From: a virus
Strand: one strand, 5' to 3'
Length of the DNA stretch: 21,264 nucleotides
IMG/VR virus record: IMGVR_UViG_3300031772_000341
Span: 1-21,264 of that record
Each line of letters starts with the position of its first letter. The first letter of the stretch is position 1. Shown in pieces: positions 126-11,600 of this stretch. Under the pieces are notes generated by a model, which made no database searches, was not told where the DNA came from, and worked only from the letters and a program-made list of their open reading frames with translations. The translations under genes were made by a program, and so were the position numbers.

Positions 126-1985
126 TCAAATTGACTTGAGCAACATCAGACCGCTCGAAGTCACAGCACGACCAATAAAACTCCAGGGAACCTGGCCGTT
201 CCAAGACGTCGGTTTAGTTGATGTTGTCGTAATGCCGCTAGTTGTTGGATTTGCGTAGTAGAAGGCGCCGGTCGTTAGGTTGGCAGCAGGTTCGTTGTAT
301 AAAGTTCCTGGCAGATTCACGAGGCACGACGAGCCACTAGCCACGGTGGATTGGGAGACGCCGAGGACGTTAGGGAAGGAGTTTATGGTGGGAATGTATG
401 AGGTTGAGATGAGTTCGTTGGCTACAATTGCAGTGCCAAAACTGGAGTTGCCAACATCAGCGTAAGCAATGACGATTCGGTTGTTGGTTGAGTTGTAAGT
501 AAGGGAGGTGTAAGGGGAGCTAGCAGATTCAAAAACAACAGCAGTGCCGAATGAAATGGACGTACCAGAAACAGTACCGACAATGGCGGTGCCGTAGCTG
601 GAATTGCCGAAGTCTGTGTAAGCAATGACGACTCGACTATTAGTGGAGTCGTAAGTGGCGGAAATGTACCTGGAATCAGCAGATTCAAAAACAACAGCAG
701 TACCGAATGAGATTGATGTACCGGAGACAGTACCGACAATGGCGGTGCCAAAACTGGAGTTGCCGACGTCTGTGTAAGCAATTACAACTCGGTTGTTGGT
801 GGAATTGTAGGTGGCGGAGATGTTAAGGGTGGTAGCAGATTCAAAAACAACAGCAGTACCGAATGAGATTGCTGTACCAGAAACAGTACCGACAATGGCG
901 GTGCCGTATAAAGAGTTGCCGAAGTCTATGTAAGCAATGACGACTCGGTTGTTGGTGGAGTCGTAAGTGGCGGAGCTGGAAACGGTGGTAGCAGATTCAA
1001 AAACACCGGCAGTACCGAATGAGATTGATGTACCAGAAACAGTACCGACAATGGCGGTGCCGTAGCTGGAATTGCCGGCGTCTTGATAAGCAATGACGAC
1101 TCGGTTGTTGGTGGAGTCGTAAGTGGCGGAGATGTAAAAGGTGGTAGCAGATTCAAAAACAACAGCAGTACCGAATGAGATTGATGTACCGGAGACAGTA
1201 CCGACAATGGCGGTGCCGTAGCTGGAGTTACCACTGTCCGTGTAAGCAATTACAACTCGGTTGTTGGTGGAATCGTAGGTGGAGGAGATGTAGTCGGAGC
1301 TAGCAGATTCAAAAACAACGGCAGTACCGAATGAGATCGATGTGCCAGAAACAGTGCCGACAATGGCGGTGCCATAGTCGGAGTTGCCGAGGTCTCGGTA
1401 GGCGATAACGACTCGGTTGTTGGTGGAATCGTAGGTGGAGGAGATGTAGTCGGAGCTAGCAGATTCAAAAACAACAGCGGCACTAGGGAAACTAAAACTT
1501 TCTGTTGTTGTACTTCTAACACTCTGCACCCTCCCCGCACCATCAACACCAACCACATAACCCGACGCAATTGCACTAGCCGCCGTAAGCCGAGCAGTCG
1601 TTCCACCACCAGCGCCGAGAGTCGGGACTAAAGCCAGCGCAGCATTACCCGATGCAAGCGCAGCGGTGCCGACAACCAGCGAATTATTACCACTAGCCAG
1701 CGCATTAGAAGCTAAAAACGCCGCAGTAGAACCGCTAGCTAATGCAGTATTCGCAGTGACCTGAGCCGTGCCATCGATACCCAGCGCATCCCCGACGTAA
1801 ATAATCCCACTTGGATTCGGCGCCAGAGCAACATCAATTTGAATATTGCTAGAAACCGTGCCGCCGCCAGTTAGACCGCTACCAGCAACAACCTGAGTTG
1901 TCGAAGTACCCGCAGTAACAGTGTCGCCGGTTAACAGCTCCGAAACGAGACCATTTTCAATAACGAGCGGGCGGCGGGTAGCCAT
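126..1985 (-). CDS. Receptor-binding-type fibre protein with seven-bladed beta-propeller
   Basis: A 619-residue protein. Residues 1-169 are Ala/Ser/Gly-rich with repeated ASG tripeptides (fibre shaft or attachment part). Residues 170-521 are seven tandem 52-residue units built on FES, STNNRVVIAY, GN, YGTAIV and GTVSGTSISFG, each able to form four beta strands. The seventh unit lacks its last strand, while residues 160-168 (TTESFSFPS) before unit 1 resemble that strand, which fits velcro closure of a seven-bladed propeller. Residues 522-619 form a beta-rich module ending GRAVTSSGL that is shared with the 126-residue protein at 2651-3031. TTGAGG precedes the ATG by seven bases. The role is inferred to be host-surface recognition at the virion tip. 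The propeller fold is inferred from repeat length and number, not from any search. Confidence 0.8.
   Translation of the reverse strand: MATRRPLVIENGLVSELLTGDTVTAGTSTTQVVAGSGLTGGGTVSSNIQIDVALAPNPSGIIYVGDALGIDGTAQVTANTALASGSTAAFLASNALASGNNSLVVGTAALASGNAALALVPTLGAGGGTTARLTAASAIASGYVVGVDGAGRVQSVRSTTTESFSFPSAAVVFESASSDYISSTYDSTNNRVVIAYRDLGNSDYGTAIVGTVSGTSISFGTAVVFESASSDYISSTYDSTNNRVVIAYTDSGNSSYGTAIVGTVSGTSISFGTAVVFESATTFYISATYDSTNNRVVIAYQDAGNSSYGTAIVGTVSGTSISFGTAGVFESATTVSSSATYDSTNNRVVIAYIDFGNSLYGTAIVGTVSGTAISFGTAVVFESATTLNISATYNSTNNRVVIAYTDVGNSSFGTAIVGTVSGTSISFGTAVVFESADSRYISATYDSTNSRVVIAYTDFGNSSYGTAIVGTVSGTSISFGTAVVFESASSPYTSLTYNSTNNRIVIAYADVGNSSFGTAIVANELISTSYIPTINSFPNVLGVSQSTVASGSSCLVNLPGTLYNEPAANLTTGAFYYANPTTSGITTTSTKPTSWNGQVPWSFIGRAVTSSGLMLLKSI
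423..1478 (-). repeat. Seven 156-bp tandem repeats encoding propeller blades
   Basis: The motif on the plus strand around agcagattcaaaaac recurs every 156 bases, at about 527, 683, 839, 995, 1151, 1303 and 1459. Units differ by synonymous changes and by clusters of amino-acid changes at unit positions 8-13, 28-30 and 33-35. Units 1 and 2 are nearly identical across the first half at DNA level, which suggests recent duplication or gene conversion between blades. Confidence 0.9.
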
Positions 1986-5049: not shown

Positions 5050-5436
5050 AGGACACCTCCAGGTTTTACAAAGTCTATAGGTTTCTTAGGGTATATGTAA
5101 ACCACGAGCTAGCCGTAACCCTATGGTTTGCGTTTTAAAAAATCTTCCCAAAAACTTTCTCTAAAACCGTGCTTTACCAACCAAACTAGACTAACTAATC
5201 AAATATAAATTATTAGAGTTGTATCTATATAAACGTATTAAGTTAAAGTTTTATAAAACAACTAGGTAAACATTCAAAAACCCATTTAGTAAAAGATAAA
5301 AATTGTAGTCTCAATCCAGTCTCGTCGTAGACTCCTTAAAAATAGAAAGTATTAATTATTAGGGCTTTTGCGCCTACTCTTCTTTAATACGTTGTGTGCA
5401 CTCTAAAAATTTTATGCTTCCTTAACGTTTCTTGGT
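5050..5436. promoter_or_regulatory. Divergent AT-rich intergenic region
   Basis: A 387-base region between the leftward fibre genes and the rightward accessory island. It is much richer in A and T than its surroundings and has no supported ORF. It should contain promoters in both directions, but I cannot place convincing -35/-10 pairs. Visible structures are alternative short pairings at 5080-5129 (GGTTT with AAACC; TAGGGT with ACCCTA; AAACCA with TGGTTT) in the leader of the 55-residue gene, and a perfect 5-bp hairpin AGTCT-CGTCGT-AGACT at 5318-5333. Confidence 0.5.
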
Positions 5437-6168
5437 GTGCATCAGGTGCTATGCTGCACCCAGAATGCAACTCTTGGTATGGGCTTAAACCTCCGGGCAG
5501 TAGCGCTACTAGGTCTCCTCGACCTAGACGATTCAGCCTGTCCTAACCCCACGGGGGCTTCTAAGACCATTGAGAGGATTGGGCACTGGCATATTGAGCA
5601 CCACTCCGATGTCTCTGTCTGGCGTTGCTTGTGCGGTCGCTCGGACCCGCTCTGCATCCCGGCTAGCTTCCGCAAGCGAATCCGTCTGCCTCATGACCTG
5701 ATCCAAGCCTGCGAAGTTTGCCGGAGCGAGTTGGCGGCCTGTTCAAGTCGTGCCACACGGCTACACGCATGGCTGGAACGCCATCGGCTCCTGATCGATA
5801 GGACCGAGCACCTTGAGTACCCAGAGGATCGCGGCTTTACCTACAGTGAGGATGACGGACAATCCATACGGACTCGCCGTTTTATTTATGAAGCATTCTT
5901 TAAGACAAAACTAAGATCTAGTGATTTCGTGAGCTCCAAGTGCTCTAATCCATTTTGTATCAATCCATACCACTTGTGCATCAAACCAACCCCGAATCAG
6001 AAAGCTTCACCCGCGATCGCGAGGTTTATATCCCACCTTCAAGAGATAGGCATCTCAGCCAAGATTACTCAGAAGGTGGTGGCCGAAAAGTTCGGAACGA
6101 AATTATCTCTTTCCACAATCCAAGGGCTCAGGGCCGCAACCAAGCAATTACTAAGTACGGCGGCTTAA
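5437..6168 (+). CDS. Zinc-binding HNH/His-Me-finger-like DNA-binding protein
   Basis: Up to 243 residues from GTG 5437. ATG 5479 is an alternative start, and neither has a clear Shine-Dalgarno. A first cysteine cluster lies at 64-95 (CLC, C73, then CEVC). A second, at 169-180, reads CSNPFCINPYHL, the zinc loop of phage and homing HNH endonucleases. In active relatives a catalytic His precedes the first Cys by two (V-x-H-x-C). Here the residues are VSSKC, so that His is Ser167. This suggests DNA binding without nuclease activity. The last 40 residues (ITQKVVAEKFGTKLSLSTIQ) could be a helix-turn-helix. The first half is more G+C-rich than the second. A HIP1 octamer is at 6013-6020. It heads the plus-strand island and is likely a regulator. 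Confidence 0.65.
   Translation: MHQVLCCTQNATLGMGLNLRAVALLGLLDLDDSACPNPTGASKTIERIGHWHIEHHSDVSVWRCLCGRSDPLCIPASFRKRIRLPHDLIQACEVCRSELAACSSRATRLHAWLERHRLLIDRTEHLEYPEDRGFTYSEDDGQSIRTRRFIYEAFFKTKLRSSDFVSSKCSNPFCINPYHLCIKPTPNQKASPAIARFISHLQEIGISAKITQKVVAEKFGTKLSLSTIQGLRAATKQLLSTAA
6013..6020. repeat. HIP1 octamer GCGATCGC
   Basis: One exact copy of the palindrome that is highly over-represented in many cyanobacterial genomes. It lies inside the HNH-like gene. A single copy is only weak support for a cyanobacterial host or donor. Confidence 0.6.
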
Positions 6169-6185
6169 TCCTTGACTTACAGCAG

Positions 6186-6377
6186 ATGCAACCTGCTAGC
6201 ATCAGCGAGATTTCCGAAACGGTCGGTCAGTCTACGAGCACAACTCGAAATCATTTGAGGCGGCTGATGCAGTTGGGCCTCGTTATTAAAACTTCATTCG
6301 AGCATCATTCTCTCTACTGTTTAAATGGCTGTTACAACTTACACATCACCAGCGTACTCTCAGAGTTCTACGAATGA
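6186..6377 (+). CDS. Winged-helix reading frame overlapping the HNH-like gene
   Basis: The reading frame is open from about 5955 to TGA 6377 in the -1 frame relative to the HNH-like gene. Its last 75 residues look like a winged helix-turn-helix: a helix YGGLILDLQQM, then ISEISETVGQSTSTTRNHLRRLMQLGLVIK, then a wing. The recognisable domain begins before the only nearby ATG (6186), and no ATG, GTG or TTG lies in frame between 5976 and 6186. So either the protein starts at ATG 6186 with a trimmed first helix, or it is made by -1 frameshifting or read-through from the HNH-like frame, which stops at 6168. A sequencing or mutational frameshift is a third possibility. It overlaps the next gene by 53 bases. 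Confidence 0.5.
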   Translation: MQPASISEISETVGQSTSTTRNHLRRLMQLGLVIKTSFEHHSLYCLNGCYNLHITSVLSEFYE

Positions 6378-6780
6378 ACTCAAGCGTCCGTGTCTCTGGG
6401 ATGACAAGCATAAAATCGAGAACCTTCCGATTTGGATCTACACCGATAATCAACCACCAAAAAATATCGAAGAGTGCGAGGCAAAGTTAAGTTCACTTAA
6501 CTACACCATCCGCGACATTGAGCTACAAATTGAGATTCGTGAGCTTGAACTTAAGACTGGCTCTAGTCGCCACGGGAATGCTTTTGACTTCGATCGCTGG
6601 AAGGTAGGGGCACTTAAAGCTAAGCAAACTCACCTTTACCTCTTGAGCGCATATACATACTGGTTGCTCAATAACACCCCTAGAGTTCTTGACACAGCTT
6701 CAAAACTCGATAAGCTGATTGGGTTATTGATTGAGGATCCAGCAGACTTCGATCAAAAAGCTACGGCGCTCCTAAACTAA
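6325..6780 (+). CDS. Coiled-coil hypothetical protein
   Basis: A 151-residue protein starting at ATG 6325. Residues 1-45 are polar and probably disordered. Residues 48-80 (IEECEAKLSSLNYTIRD, then IELQIEIRELELK) have heptad-like spacing typical of a coiled coil. Residues 95-150 are helical with aromatic residues (THLYLLSAYTYWLL). No catalytic motif, signal peptide or family is recognised. It overlaps the winged-helix frame at its 5' end and is followed directly by a strong hairpin at 6783-6814. It may act with the DNA-binding proteins around it, but this is a guess from position only. Confidence 0.65.
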   Translation: MAVTTYTSPAYSQSSTNELKRPCLWDDKHKIENLPIWIYTDNQPPKNIEECEAKLSSLNYTIRDIELQIEIRELELKTGSSRHGNAFDFDRWKVGALKAKQTHLYLLSAYTYWLLNNTPRVLDTASKLDKLIGLLIEDPADFDQKATALLN

Positions 6781-6911
6781 ATGTGTCTTTGCGTAACAAA
6801 GGCCGCAGAGACACGGGGGGTGTTGTGTTCGTTTTAGCCTTTTCCGACTGACCGTAAGTCGCCCTGGTTGCCTGGTACCGGGTGACCAAGGGGAGCCCCT
6901 CAACTATTTAC
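6781..6911 (+). ncRNA. Intergenic block of three RNA hairpins
   Basis: Three consecutive stem-loops lie between two plus-strand genes. Hairpin 1: GTGTCTTTGCG (6783-6793) pairs over all 11 positions with CGCAGAGACAC (6804-6814), with one G-U pair and a 10-base loop. Hairpin 2: CGACT (6845-6849) with AGTCG (6857-6861). Hairpin 3: 6862-6874 with 6879-6892, 13 pairs with one bulged A and a GUAC loop. None is followed by a clean U-run, so a simple intrinsic terminator is unlikely. The gene that follows (ATG 6912) starts 20 bases after hairpin 3. The block could be a leader, an attenuator or a processed small RNA. Confidence 0.45.
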
Positions 6912-7235
6912 ATGGATCAATCACTCAGAGAAATCAAGCAGATCAGAGATGCTCTCGTCAACATTGACGTTACGCTTCAACTTTTAATTGCACAAAAAGA
7001 AGGCAAGGTAACAAGTGCTTTCGTAAATAAAAAAATAATTAGTCAAAGACTCAACGTACCTTCTGTAACAATCGACAAGCTGCTTCACCAAGGGATTGTA
7101 TCTGGCGGGTCTTCCGGTCTTGTTGAAGGAAAGCATTACTGTAAGGTGGACCCAGAAGAACGAAATTCTTCAAAGTTTCTGTTCGACCCACACGCGGTTA
7201 TGCAGGCCGCTTGGAAAAACTTTCAAAATGTTTGA
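6912..7235 (+). CDS. Putative helix-turn-helix DNA-binding protein
   Basis: A 107-residue protein from ATG 6912. A GTG 30 bases upstream (6882) is in frame, but it would lie inside hairpin 3. Residues 3-30 look like an amphipathic helix or coiled coil. Residues 36-62 (VNKKIISQRLNVPSVTIDKLLHQGIV) fit a helix-turn-helix of the MerR/excisionase kind, followed by a wing-like stretch (GKHYCKVDP) and a C-terminal helix (DPHAVMQAAWKNF). GGGGAG at about 6890 is a weak ribosome-binding site. The stop overlaps the start of the next gene by eight bases. It is inferred to be a small transcriptional regulator or DNA-architecture protein of the island. Confidence 0.6.
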   Translation: MDQSLREIKQIRDALVNIDVTLQLLIAQKEGKVTSAFVNKKIISQRLNVPSVTIDKLLHQGIVSGGSSGLVEGKHYCKVDPEERNSSKFLFDPHAVMQAAWKNFQNV

Positions 7236-7647
7236 TTTATCGCGAGGCGCAACTGCCCTCATTAAAAATTTATTTGGTGGCAACGAGACTGAGCGCATGA
7301 TCAGCGCTGGTGTTGTTCGGACTATTCTGTCCGACATGACTCGGTTGTACTTTGAGAACCGTGCCGCGATGGGAGAAGGGATTCTTGTATTTGATCCAGA
7401 AAGTCCCGAGCAATCAAAATACATGACTAAGACGGATCTTGAAAACGATTTAGCTATAGCTCAAGAGGGGATGGATCGAGAATCTGAGCAACTGTTCAGC
7501 AAAATTATTAAAATTATTGAAAAAGAATCTGATTCAGATTTAGCTCTTGTAGCCATGATTCAGTACAGCGAAATTGCTATTCACATTATTGACCCAAAGG
7601 AGGCTAATAAAAAGATTGACGAATATTCAAACGGTCTCTTTTACTAA
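7228..7647 (+). CDS. Hypothetical protein of accessory island
   Basis: A 139-residue protein starting at ATG 7228, which overlaps the stop of the preceding gene (TGA 7233-7235). It is largely helical and acidic, with helices around 8-45, 67-100 and 103-130. No membrane segment, cysteine motif or catalytic signature is seen and no family is recognised. Its 3' end contains a strong ribosome-binding sequence AAAGGAGG (7596-7603) that serves the next gene, so translation of the two genes is probably linked. Confidence 0.65.
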   Translation: MFDLSRGATALIKNLFGGNETERMISAGVVRTILSDMTRLYFENRAAMGEGILVFDPESPEQSKYMTKTDLENDLAIAQEGMDRESEQLFSKIIKIIEKESDSDLALVAMIQYSEIAIHIIDPKEANKKIDEYSNGLFY

Positions 7648-8206
7648 TGACGATTTTATATCTCCTCCTGAGTTAGTAGCTACCACGGCTGCTTTCTTTG
7701 GAGGATCAATTGACCTAGATCCTGCCTCAAGCGAAGTTGCTAACTCAATTGTTCAAGCTGATCGATTTTTTACGTGGCGTGAAAATGGACTTGTTCAACC
7801 GTGGAAAGCAAACAATATTTATCTTTATCCTCCTAGAAATGTCTTAACTGGTGATGAACAACCAAAAGACACCAGACTTTTTAGAAAATTATTAAGATTT
7901 AAAAAGTCGGCCCAACGCGTGTGGCTAGAGCACTGCTACCAAAAGTGGCTACACAACGAATTTGGACAAGCAATAATATTTTTAACTTCTTCTGAAGTTG
8001 CTTTATTGGTTACTCAGAAAATTAAATTTGATTTTCCTTTTTGTATACTTGCAGAGAGACCTAAACTTATACGAGAAAAAGATTTAAATTTAGTCAAAGC
8101 TAAAGTATTTGGTTTTTTATATTATTTACCGCCGCAATCAAATTACGAGATAAGTATTAGAAATTTTTCTGAACATTATAGTAATTTGGGACGGGTATAT
8201 ATTTAA
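7616..8206 (+). CDS. Dam-like DNA adenine methyltransferase homologue with degraded catalytic motif
   Basis: About 196 residues if started at TTG 7616, which is 12 bases after AAAGGAGG (7596-7603). No ATG is available. Residues 14-63 (FISPPELV, GGSIDLDPASSEVAN, ADRFFTW, NGL, QPW) match the phage DNA N-6-adenine-methyltransferase (Dam) family by eye. The family's catalytic NPPY/DPPY motif is expected next, but here it reads YLYPPRN (69-75), with Tyr for Asn/Asp and Arg for the aromatic residue. The rest keeps the family layout (AIIFLTSSEVALLVTQKI, FPFCILAERPKLI, VFGFLYYLPP). It may be a DNA-binding pseudoenzyme, or active on something else. It ends in a convergent 50-base overlap with the minus-strand gene at 8157-8459. 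Confidence 0.65.
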   Translation: MTNIQTVSFTNDDFISPPELVATTAAFFGGSIDLDPASSEVANSIVQADRFFTWRENGLVQPWKANNIYLYPPRNVLTGDEQPKDTRLFRKLLRFKKSAQRVWLEHCYQKWLHNEFGQAIIFLTSSEVALLVTQKIKFDFPFCILAERPKLIREKDLNLVKAKVFGFLYYLPPQSNYEISIRNFSEHYSNLGRVYI

Positions 8207-10796: not shown

Positions 10797-11048
10797 ATGG
10801 AATCCGCAAAGCTCTTGACCATCGCCCAGACCGCTGAGTTGCTGAACTGCTCTGCAGGTTTTGTACGTAAGCGTATCTCTCTGACCGAATCCAACCAGCC
10901 CGGTGGTTGGCCCAAGGGGATCTTCGTGAATCTCCAACCCAACGGCGCCAAGTCGCTGTTCCGCATCAATAAGGACGCTCTTGAGGCTTACCTAAACTCT
11001 GCGGAAGAAGAGGCTACAGTAGAAGAAAGCGTAGCTTGCGCTGTCTGA
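10797..11048 (+). CDS. Excisionase-like helix-turn-helix protein
   Basis: An 83-residue protein from ATG 10797. Residues 6-28 (LLTIAQTAELLNCSAGFVRKR) are a clear MerR/excisionase-type helix-turn-helix (HTH_17-like), followed by a wing (GGWPKGIFVNLQPNGAKSLF) that ends in the strand and helix FRINKDALEAYL, the usual close of this family. The last 15 residues are acidic. Such proteins act as recombination directionality factors or small transcription factors. No integrase is seen in the window, so a regulatory role is as likely. It is followed after nine bases by the Dps-like gene, suggesting one transcript. Confidence 0.75.
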   Translation: MESAKLLTIAQTAELLNCSAGFVRKRISLTESNQPGGWPKGIFVNLQPNGAKSLFRINKDALEAYLNSAEEEATVEESVACAV

Positions 11049-11057
11049 TCGCTGACA

Positions 11058-11600
11058 ATGAACACTTCCTCTTTGGCCAACATCTTTCAAAGTGCTTCTC
11101 AAGCTCCGACGCAAGAAGTCGTCAAAGAGGAGGTTATTCTTACAAAAGAGGCCACGCCAGATAATCTCGTTTATCAGATGGTCTCTTTTGCTTCTTATTT
11201 ATATCAATTGAACATCCAGGCTCATTTGCTTCACCTCAATGTCGAGTGCTCAAACTTTTTATCTGTTCATGAATTTTTAAAAGAACAGTACGAACAGCAC
11301 ACAGCAGATTTTGACAGGGTAGCTGAGTTAGTCCGCAGCATGGATTACTTAATGCCTATGTGCCAGTGTAGTCTTTTTGACGCATTTAAAAAATTCCCAG
11401 CCGTCAAGACCTACGACGCTCGCGAGGGTCTGACGCTTTACACTAAGAACATTGAAGCTGGCGCAATGATGGCAAAAGACGTCACAGAGGCAGCTCGTGA
11501 AACTGGAGCACCTGATGCTGAAAACTATCTTGCTGAAATTAGTGGCAATTTATTCAAAGGAGCTTGGATGCTAAAGGCGACTCTCCGAGGCTCTATGTAA
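11058..11600 (+). CDS. Dps/ferritin-like protein with altered ferroxidase site
   Basis: A 180-residue helical protein. Residues 36-105 match the Dps family: H59 in HLNV, then CSNFLSVHEFLKEQYEQ (64-80), then DRVAEL (86-91). Dps binds metal with two His, two Asp and one Glu at fixed spacing. Mapped from H59 and H71 (12 apart, as expected), the last two ligands are D86 and E90, but the position four after H71 is Lys75 in place of Asp. E76 is next to it. The N-terminal 35 residues are an extension and the C-terminal half has further helices. In hosts, Dps oxidises iron and protects DNA from peroxide. Here a protective or virion-linked role is inferred. The end overlaps the minus-strand fibre gene by eight bases. 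Confidence 0.7.
   Translation: MNTSSLANIFQSASQAPTQEVVKEEVILTKEATPDNLVYQMVSFASYLYQLNIQAHLLHLNVECSNFLSVHEFLKEQYEQHTADFDRVAELVRSMDYLMPMCQCSLFDAFKKFPAVKTYDAREGLTLYTKNIEAGAMMAKDVTEAARETGAPDAENYLAEISGNLFKGAWMLKATLRGSM

Follow-up and report, generated by a model that had tools for sequence, protein, structure and literature searches.

The window analysed here is a viral record of 21,264 nucleotides (IMG/VR record IMGVR_UViG_3300031772_000341, positions 1 to 21,264) and comes from a relative of Synechococcus phage S-EIV1. It carries a block of six plus-strand genes encoding, in order, an HNH-like zinc protein, a winged-helix protein, a coiled-coil-like protein (CC), a helix-turn-helix-like protein (HTH), a protein without assigned function (U), and a Dam-like protein. 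The gap between the CC and HTH genes (6781–6911), overlooked by the initial annotation, contains a strongly conserved structured RNA of approximately 120 nucleotides. The HNH-like and Dam-like proteins lack expected catalytic residues across the lineage. The preferred reading, which is tentative, is that the block works as a regulatory operon in which pseudo-enzymes bind nucleic acid and a pseudoknotted leader RNA governs the HTH-U-Dam half.

The major head protein of the window is 69% identical to its S-EIV1 (KJ410740) counterpart. No DNA-level match to the window was found in the public phage collection. Nearer relatives are plentiful in IMG/VR, some on contigs of approximately 85 kb, and 549 candidate Dam-like stretches were identified there. 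The best 80 of these 549 were fetched as loci; they sample the closer members of the group, with near-duplicates among them. The block was searched for in 81 loci using profiles built from ten relatives.

Structured RNA Between the CC and HTH Genes

The RNA is composed of a three-way junction, an external hairpin, and a loop-loop pseudoknot. The helices are listed in Table 1. In the nearer clade (25 sequences), a 44-pair structure drawn up by hand is paired at 92.3%. Its double-changed cells number 222, compared with 65.5 in shuffles, while slid controls give 45 or fewer. The same helices were predicted by RNAalifold from 28 more distant sequences, a set independent of the first. A covariance model (R1) was built without the pseudoknot, and exactly one R1 copy is present in 70 of 73 sources, the training rows matching by construction. 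Across 59 distinct rows, the 44 pairs are 92% paired, compared with at most 51% in slid controls. The whole structure scores 0.759 (0.214 shuffled, 0.155 for the best slid control) with 752 double-changed cells against 231 in shuffles; the R1 alignment is biased in favour of the helices in the model. No such bias applies to the pseudoknot, all 354 of whose cells in the same rows are paired (79.6% shuffled, at most 68.6% slid), with double changes at four of its six pairs. The z score of the RNA is −3.55.

Two P4 pairs are conserved as U-G (59 of 59) and G-U (53 of 59), and the plus strand is therefore the RNA strand. Unpaired A-rich and U-rich stretches are invariant. Few of the sequences are open in any frame, and a coding function for this segment was rejected. 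No RNA in Rfam 15 matches at the gathering threshold, or at E values up to 5. The comparative evidence makes the existence, strand, and pseudoknotted fold of this RNA firm.

P1 starts a few nucleotides past the upstream stop codon, and P2 usually ends 3–24 nucleotides before the HTH ATG (10 nucleotides in the window). None of the 56 spacers between the RNA and HTH contains a Shine-Dalgarno (SD)-like GGAG, AGGA, or GAGG. In one clade (L049–L075, L093, and L097), an extra HNH-like open reading frame (ORF) of approximately 140 amino acids sits between CC and HTH. The RNA stays directly 5’ of HTH in these loci. Because the inserted ORF precedes the RNA, the RNA is assigned to HTH, a linkage shown by its position across the loci. 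An RNA forming the 3’ end of CC is less likely for the same reason. A pattern scan of all IMG/VR viral contigs returned 41 stretches, 19 of which were confirmed by the model, all within the block. One relative of approximately 85 kb, scanned end to end, contains a single copy.

Of 58 sequences, 51 have a perfectly palindromic hexamer at the tip of P4, of nine different kinds. The central dinucleotide is self-complementary in 52 of the 58, with 26 expected from shuffling; when the set is clustered at 75% identity, this holds for 22 of 28. Because neighbouring bases cannot pair with each other within one strand, this pattern argues for symmetric kissing between molecules and suggests that the RNA dimerises through the P4 tip. 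The tip fits better as an RNA element than as a DNA operator because of the conserved G-U pairs and the compensatory changes.

GOLLD, ROOL, and OLE are covarying structured RNAs, two of them phage-borne, and in OLE and GOLLD symmetric intermolecular kissing is backed by switching palindromes (PMC12286853). The palindrome signal of the P4 tip is of the same kind, without membership of those families being claimed. At approximately 120 nucleotides, the RNA is smaller than these RNAs, which are several hundred nucleotides long, and it has a cis position before a coding region. In phage T4, the translational operator of gene 32 is a pseudoknot in the leader immediately before the coding sequence of a nucleic-acid-binding protein. 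Compared with that operator, the RNA described here is much larger, contains a three-way junction, and lies inside an operon.

HNH-Like and Dam-Like Proteins

The HNH-like protein consists of an N-terminal CxC...CxxC, a C-x4-C-x4-H core, and a C-terminal helical region resembling a helix-turn-helix. It matches phage endonuclease families phrog_1872 (3e-5) and phrog_6254. Weak matches to PF05551 occur in three of ten members. The zinc-binding core, whose spacing is shared with the I-PpoI-type HNH/His-Cys-box homing endonucleases, is present in all 62 distinct orthologues that span the region. Unlike those endonucleases, none of the 62 has the catalytic His. The initial annotation had read this His as replaced in the window (VSSKC, with Ser at the catalytic position), and the replacement extends to every orthologue. 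The residues found there vary freely among Ser, Thr, Met, Pro, Val, Asn, Arg, and Cys. The extra HNH-like ORF of the clade described above also lacks the catalytic His (0 of 19). The AlphaFold model has a predicted local distance difference test (pLDDT) score of 75 and a predicted template modelling (pTM) score of 0.55. Its best relevant Foldseek match is I-PpoI, which is weak (E = 1.1).

The Dam-like protein shows profile similarity to the phage Dam N6-adenine methyltransferases and shares an LDPASS-like motif with them. It matches phrog_111 at 7e-9 and Pfam Dam (PF05869) at 6e-4, where its 20 bits fall below the cut-off of 28.1; one orthologue scores above the cut-off. No second Dam match was found in 15 related records. 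LDPASS, a DPA-type motif of the presumed S-adenosylmethionine (SAM) site, is kept in all 66 distinct Dam-like proteins. Motif IV, (D/N/S)PP(Y/F/W), is absent from all 66 and is replaced by (Y/F)PP(R/K), or in one case by FPPS. The YPPR noted in the window in place of NPPY is one form of this replacement, and NPPY occurs in 0 of 66 across the lineage. The sequences of S-EIV1 type are also without NPPY, having FPPN in S-EIV1 and FPPS in L098 and L165. In contrast, NPPY is retained by most of the remoter Dam-family relatives that lie outside the lineage. The AlphaFold model has a pLDDT of 84 and a pTM of 0.83. The closest solved folds found by Foldseek are the SAM-dependent N-methyltransferases PsiM, RlmJ, and METTL16, all weak (E of approximately 2e-3, TM score of approximately 0.4). 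A search of solved structures with the Dam-like profile gave a chance match only, and no useful match came from the profiles of HNH, HTH, and U.

Intact catalytic residues are therefore not the common form among orthologues of either protein. The ratio of nonsynonymous to synonymous substitution rates (dN/dS) is 0.01–0.11 wherever dS was computable in the five block genes tested, and purifying selection on these five genes is strong. Pseudogene decay is ruled out by these values. Because the residues are lost lineage-wide while dN/dS stays this low, the HNH-like and Dam-like proteins are, on the evidence of their sequences, maintained pseudo-enzymes and not products of decay. The initial annotation had argued against restriction-modification. 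With key residues absent lineage-wide from both the nuclease-like and the methylase-like protein, such a system is indeed unlikely and was rejected.

Overlap of the HNH and Winged-Helix Genes

The winged-helix ORF lies in the −1 frame of the HNH gene in every locus, and the overlap in the window is approximately 190 nucleotides. Over the last 37 HNH codons, 31 of 32 representatives have an open −1 frame, where synonymous shuffling gives an expectation of 5.5. The +1 frame, used as a control, is open in 3 against 4.0 expected. The representatives are related, and these counts are not independent trials. Selection for the overlap is demonstrated by this comparison of reading frames.

Nearly all members of the window's clade have an ATG or GTG approximately 190 nucleotides before the HNH stop. 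Members of the other clade mostly have an ATG 112, 130, or 142 nucleotides before it. The most likely winged-helix start in the window is GTG 5976. A candidate ATC at 6105, proposed from 10 sequences, was rejected after approximately 50 more loci showed ATG or GTG at about −190 or at −112, −130, or −142. Since start codons are conserved, separate initiation of the winged-helix gene is favoured over a programmed frameshift from HNH.

HNH codons 141–160 (window 5899–5958) have synonymous sites that are identical in 90% of comparisons, against approximately 32–54% in the preceding codons. These codons may be a translation-initiation or regulatory element. The near-invariance in close relatives lies directly 5’ of the presumed winged-helix start.

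Organization of the Six-Gene Block

All six genes in the initial annotation are real. Starts were revised from 5437 to 5479 for HNH, from 5955 to a probable 5976 for the winged-helix gene, and from 6882 to 6912 for HTH; U was placed at ATG 7228 and the Dam-like gene at about TTG 7616. GTG 5437 was rejected because stop codons interrupt the extension upstream of ATG 5479 in several relatives. The features are given in Table 1.

Table 1. Genes of the plus-strand block and elements of the structured RNA, in window coordinates.
Feature	Position	Strand	Details
HNH/His-Cys-box-like zinc protein	5479..6168	+	229 aa; conservation, upstream stops in relatives, phrog_1872/6254
Winged-helix (ArsR/MarR-like) protein	5976..6377	+	Pfam HTH_5 3e-8; probable GTG start
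CC, coiled-coil-like protein	6325..6780	+	151 aa; present in all block-bearing loci
Structured RNA	6783..6901	+	covariation, 59 distinct sequences
P1 hairpin	6783-6792/6805-6814	+	
Pseudoknot L1/L3	6798-6803/6837-6842	+	P1 loop with P3 loop
P2 closing helix	6815-6820/6896-6901	+	
P3	6821-6831/6845-6853	+	
P4	6862-6875/6878-6892	+	palindromic tip GGTACC
HTH-like protein	6912..7235	+	107 aa; ATG start
U, protein without assigned function	7228..7647	+	139 aa; ATG start; S-EIV1 orthologue
Dam-like pseudo-methyltransferase	~7616..8206	+	196 aa; TTG start after AAAGGAGG; phrog_111, Pfam Dam

The six plus-strand genes occur in one order and on one strand in 70 of the 81 loci. Of the 11 loci without the full block, ten are cut by a contig end. 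The remaining one (L098) is a distant S-EIV1-like locus with U and Dam only. Wherever homologues of the flanking virion genes were found, they lie on the minus strand, in keeping with the original description of a plus-strand island amid minus-strand genes; the Xis-like/Dps-like pair described below lies on the plus strand in these loci.

CC has no Pfam match and belongs to no known family; a remote homologue is encoded elsewhere in the S-EIV1 genome (E = 2e-6). U is the most conserved of the six genes in the closest set. S-EIV1 resembles the block in having adjacent U and Dam-like genes opposite its virion genes. The HTH-like neighbour of this pair is a protein of similar layout, as judged by eye. 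S-EIV1 also encodes a degenerate HNH-like protein (VSRTC) elsewhere in its genome. Unlike the window, it does not have the six genes together as one block, and it gave no match to the RNA.

PADLOC gave no more than winged-helix matches of a generic kind, an orphan-methyltransferase match that is weak (0.022), and a single further weak match located outside the block. A non-coding divergent region of approximately 430 bp (window 5050–5478) separates the minus-strand genes from the HNH gene. Its last 35 or so nucleotides are kept between relatives, and the operon leader is probably located there.

Proposed Function and Alternatives

Under the preferred reading, the block would be a lineage-wide operon of S-EIV1-like phages that is transcribed against the virion genes. 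The two pseudo-enzymes would bind nucleic acid without cutting or methylating it and, together with the winged-helix and HTH-like proteins, would make up one set of regulators. The folded RNA would split the operon and act as the cis leader of HTH-U-Dam. Its loop-loop pseudoknot would lock the three-way junction, and the palindromic P4 tip would allow self-association. The folded state, probably set by binding of a protein from the operon, would control initiation at the SD-less HTH start 3–24 nucleotides downstream. The position of the RNA fits a cis element controlling HTH-U-Dam, and the presence of a structured RNA points to regulation at the RNA level as well. What we infer from the sequence data is that the RNA controls translation in cis, that it has a protein ligand, that it dimerises, and that the pseudo-enzymes bind nucleic acid.

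Several observations weigh against this reading. S-EIV1 has U and Dam and gives no RNA match, and no RNA above noise was found in L098, L165, or L034 either. L034 is a natural deletion in which the full protein block is present and the gap is reduced to 34 nucleotides (L034:5226-5260) with an apparent RNA 3’ end left, and the RNA is dispensable in at least this phage. HTH in L034 also has no SD; with neither an SD nor the RNA there, the RNA is not simply a substitute for an SD. No conserved alternative hairpin, terminator, or SD-sequestering switch was identified, and a competing terminator-like hairpin at the 3’ end, looked for by eye, is not conserved. The HTH-like protein has no confident Pfam domain match. 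Lastly, the flanking virion genes are as syntenic as the block itself. A scan of the gap for an intrinsic terminator or promoter was not above chance.

A trans-acting RNA, which is unlikely, would be processed from the operon mRNA and dimerise through P4. It would then work with the pseudo-enzymes, as RNA or as a ribonucleoprotein particle, in a role such as regulation or anti-defence. The compact pseudoknotted fold and the covarying palindromic tip are consistent with such a role, as are the kissing loops with switching palindromes reported for GOLLD and OLE (PMC12286853) and the weak resemblance of the Dam-like model to the RNA methyltransferases RlmJ, METTL16, and METTL5. The position of the RNA 3–24 nucleotides from the HTH start, held even with an insertion upstream, fits a cis element instead, and no conserved processing signal was identified.

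The initial annotation had proposed a coordinated system, which might for instance shield or silence DNA. The neighbourhood it relied upon is conserved in order and strand; however, the whole region is syntenic, so co-occurrence of the six genes alone is weak evidence for one system. The genes could be unrelated regulators that are neighbours by chance in a syntenic genome, with the CC-like and HNH-like genes dispersed in S-EIV1. This is rather doubtful given the gene overlaps inside the block, the common strand opposite the virion genes, and the U-Dam pair that is still adjacent in S-EIV1.

A metabolite riboswitch controlling HTH-U-Dam would account for an RNA located 5’ of a coding region with a three-way junction, a pseudoknot, and invariant unpaired stretches. 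It is improbable: there is no Rfam riboswitch match at E values up to 5 and no clear expression platform or terminator switch, and the downstream genes are DNA/RNA-binding-like, not metabolic. It is also improbable that the RNA and pseudo-enzymes form one phage regulatory particle, in which a P4-dimerised RNA would be the ligand of a protein with a methyltransferase fold, given over to recognising RNA in place of catalysis, and which would control phage or host expression. Enzymatic activity of altered chemistry in the Dam-like and HNH-like proteins, as part of a modification or nuclease system, is very improbable: purifying selection acts on both proteins and on LDPASS, but every orthologue lacks the motif IV Asn/Tyr or the catalytic His, the replacements at the HNH position vary freely, and most outside relatives keep NPPY.

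Other Features of the Window

A second plus-strand island (window 10797–11600) encodes an Xis-like helix-turn-helix protein followed by a Dps-like ferritin; of 80 related loci, at least 75 have kept it. The Xis-like protein is up to 95% identical in near relatives. A minus-strand protein of 619 amino acids (window 126–1985) contains repeated units of approximately 45 residues (VVFES...YDSTNNRVVIAY...GNSxYGTAIVGTVSGTSISFGTA) and is probably a repeat-built fibre or adhesin. The end of the window that holds this gene varies among relatives.

Significance

The virus lineage bearing the block is widespread, as indicated by the number of Dam-like stretches in IMG/VR. It adds a pseudoknotted, strongly covarying RNA that is absent from Rfam 15. 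It also offers a clean case of two enzyme folds that lack catalytic residues lineage-wide and are still under purifying selection, while the HNH/winged-helix pair supplies a conserved, long, out-of-frame gene overlap. With this block, the reuse of dead enzymes and leader RNAs for regulation by phages becomes testable.

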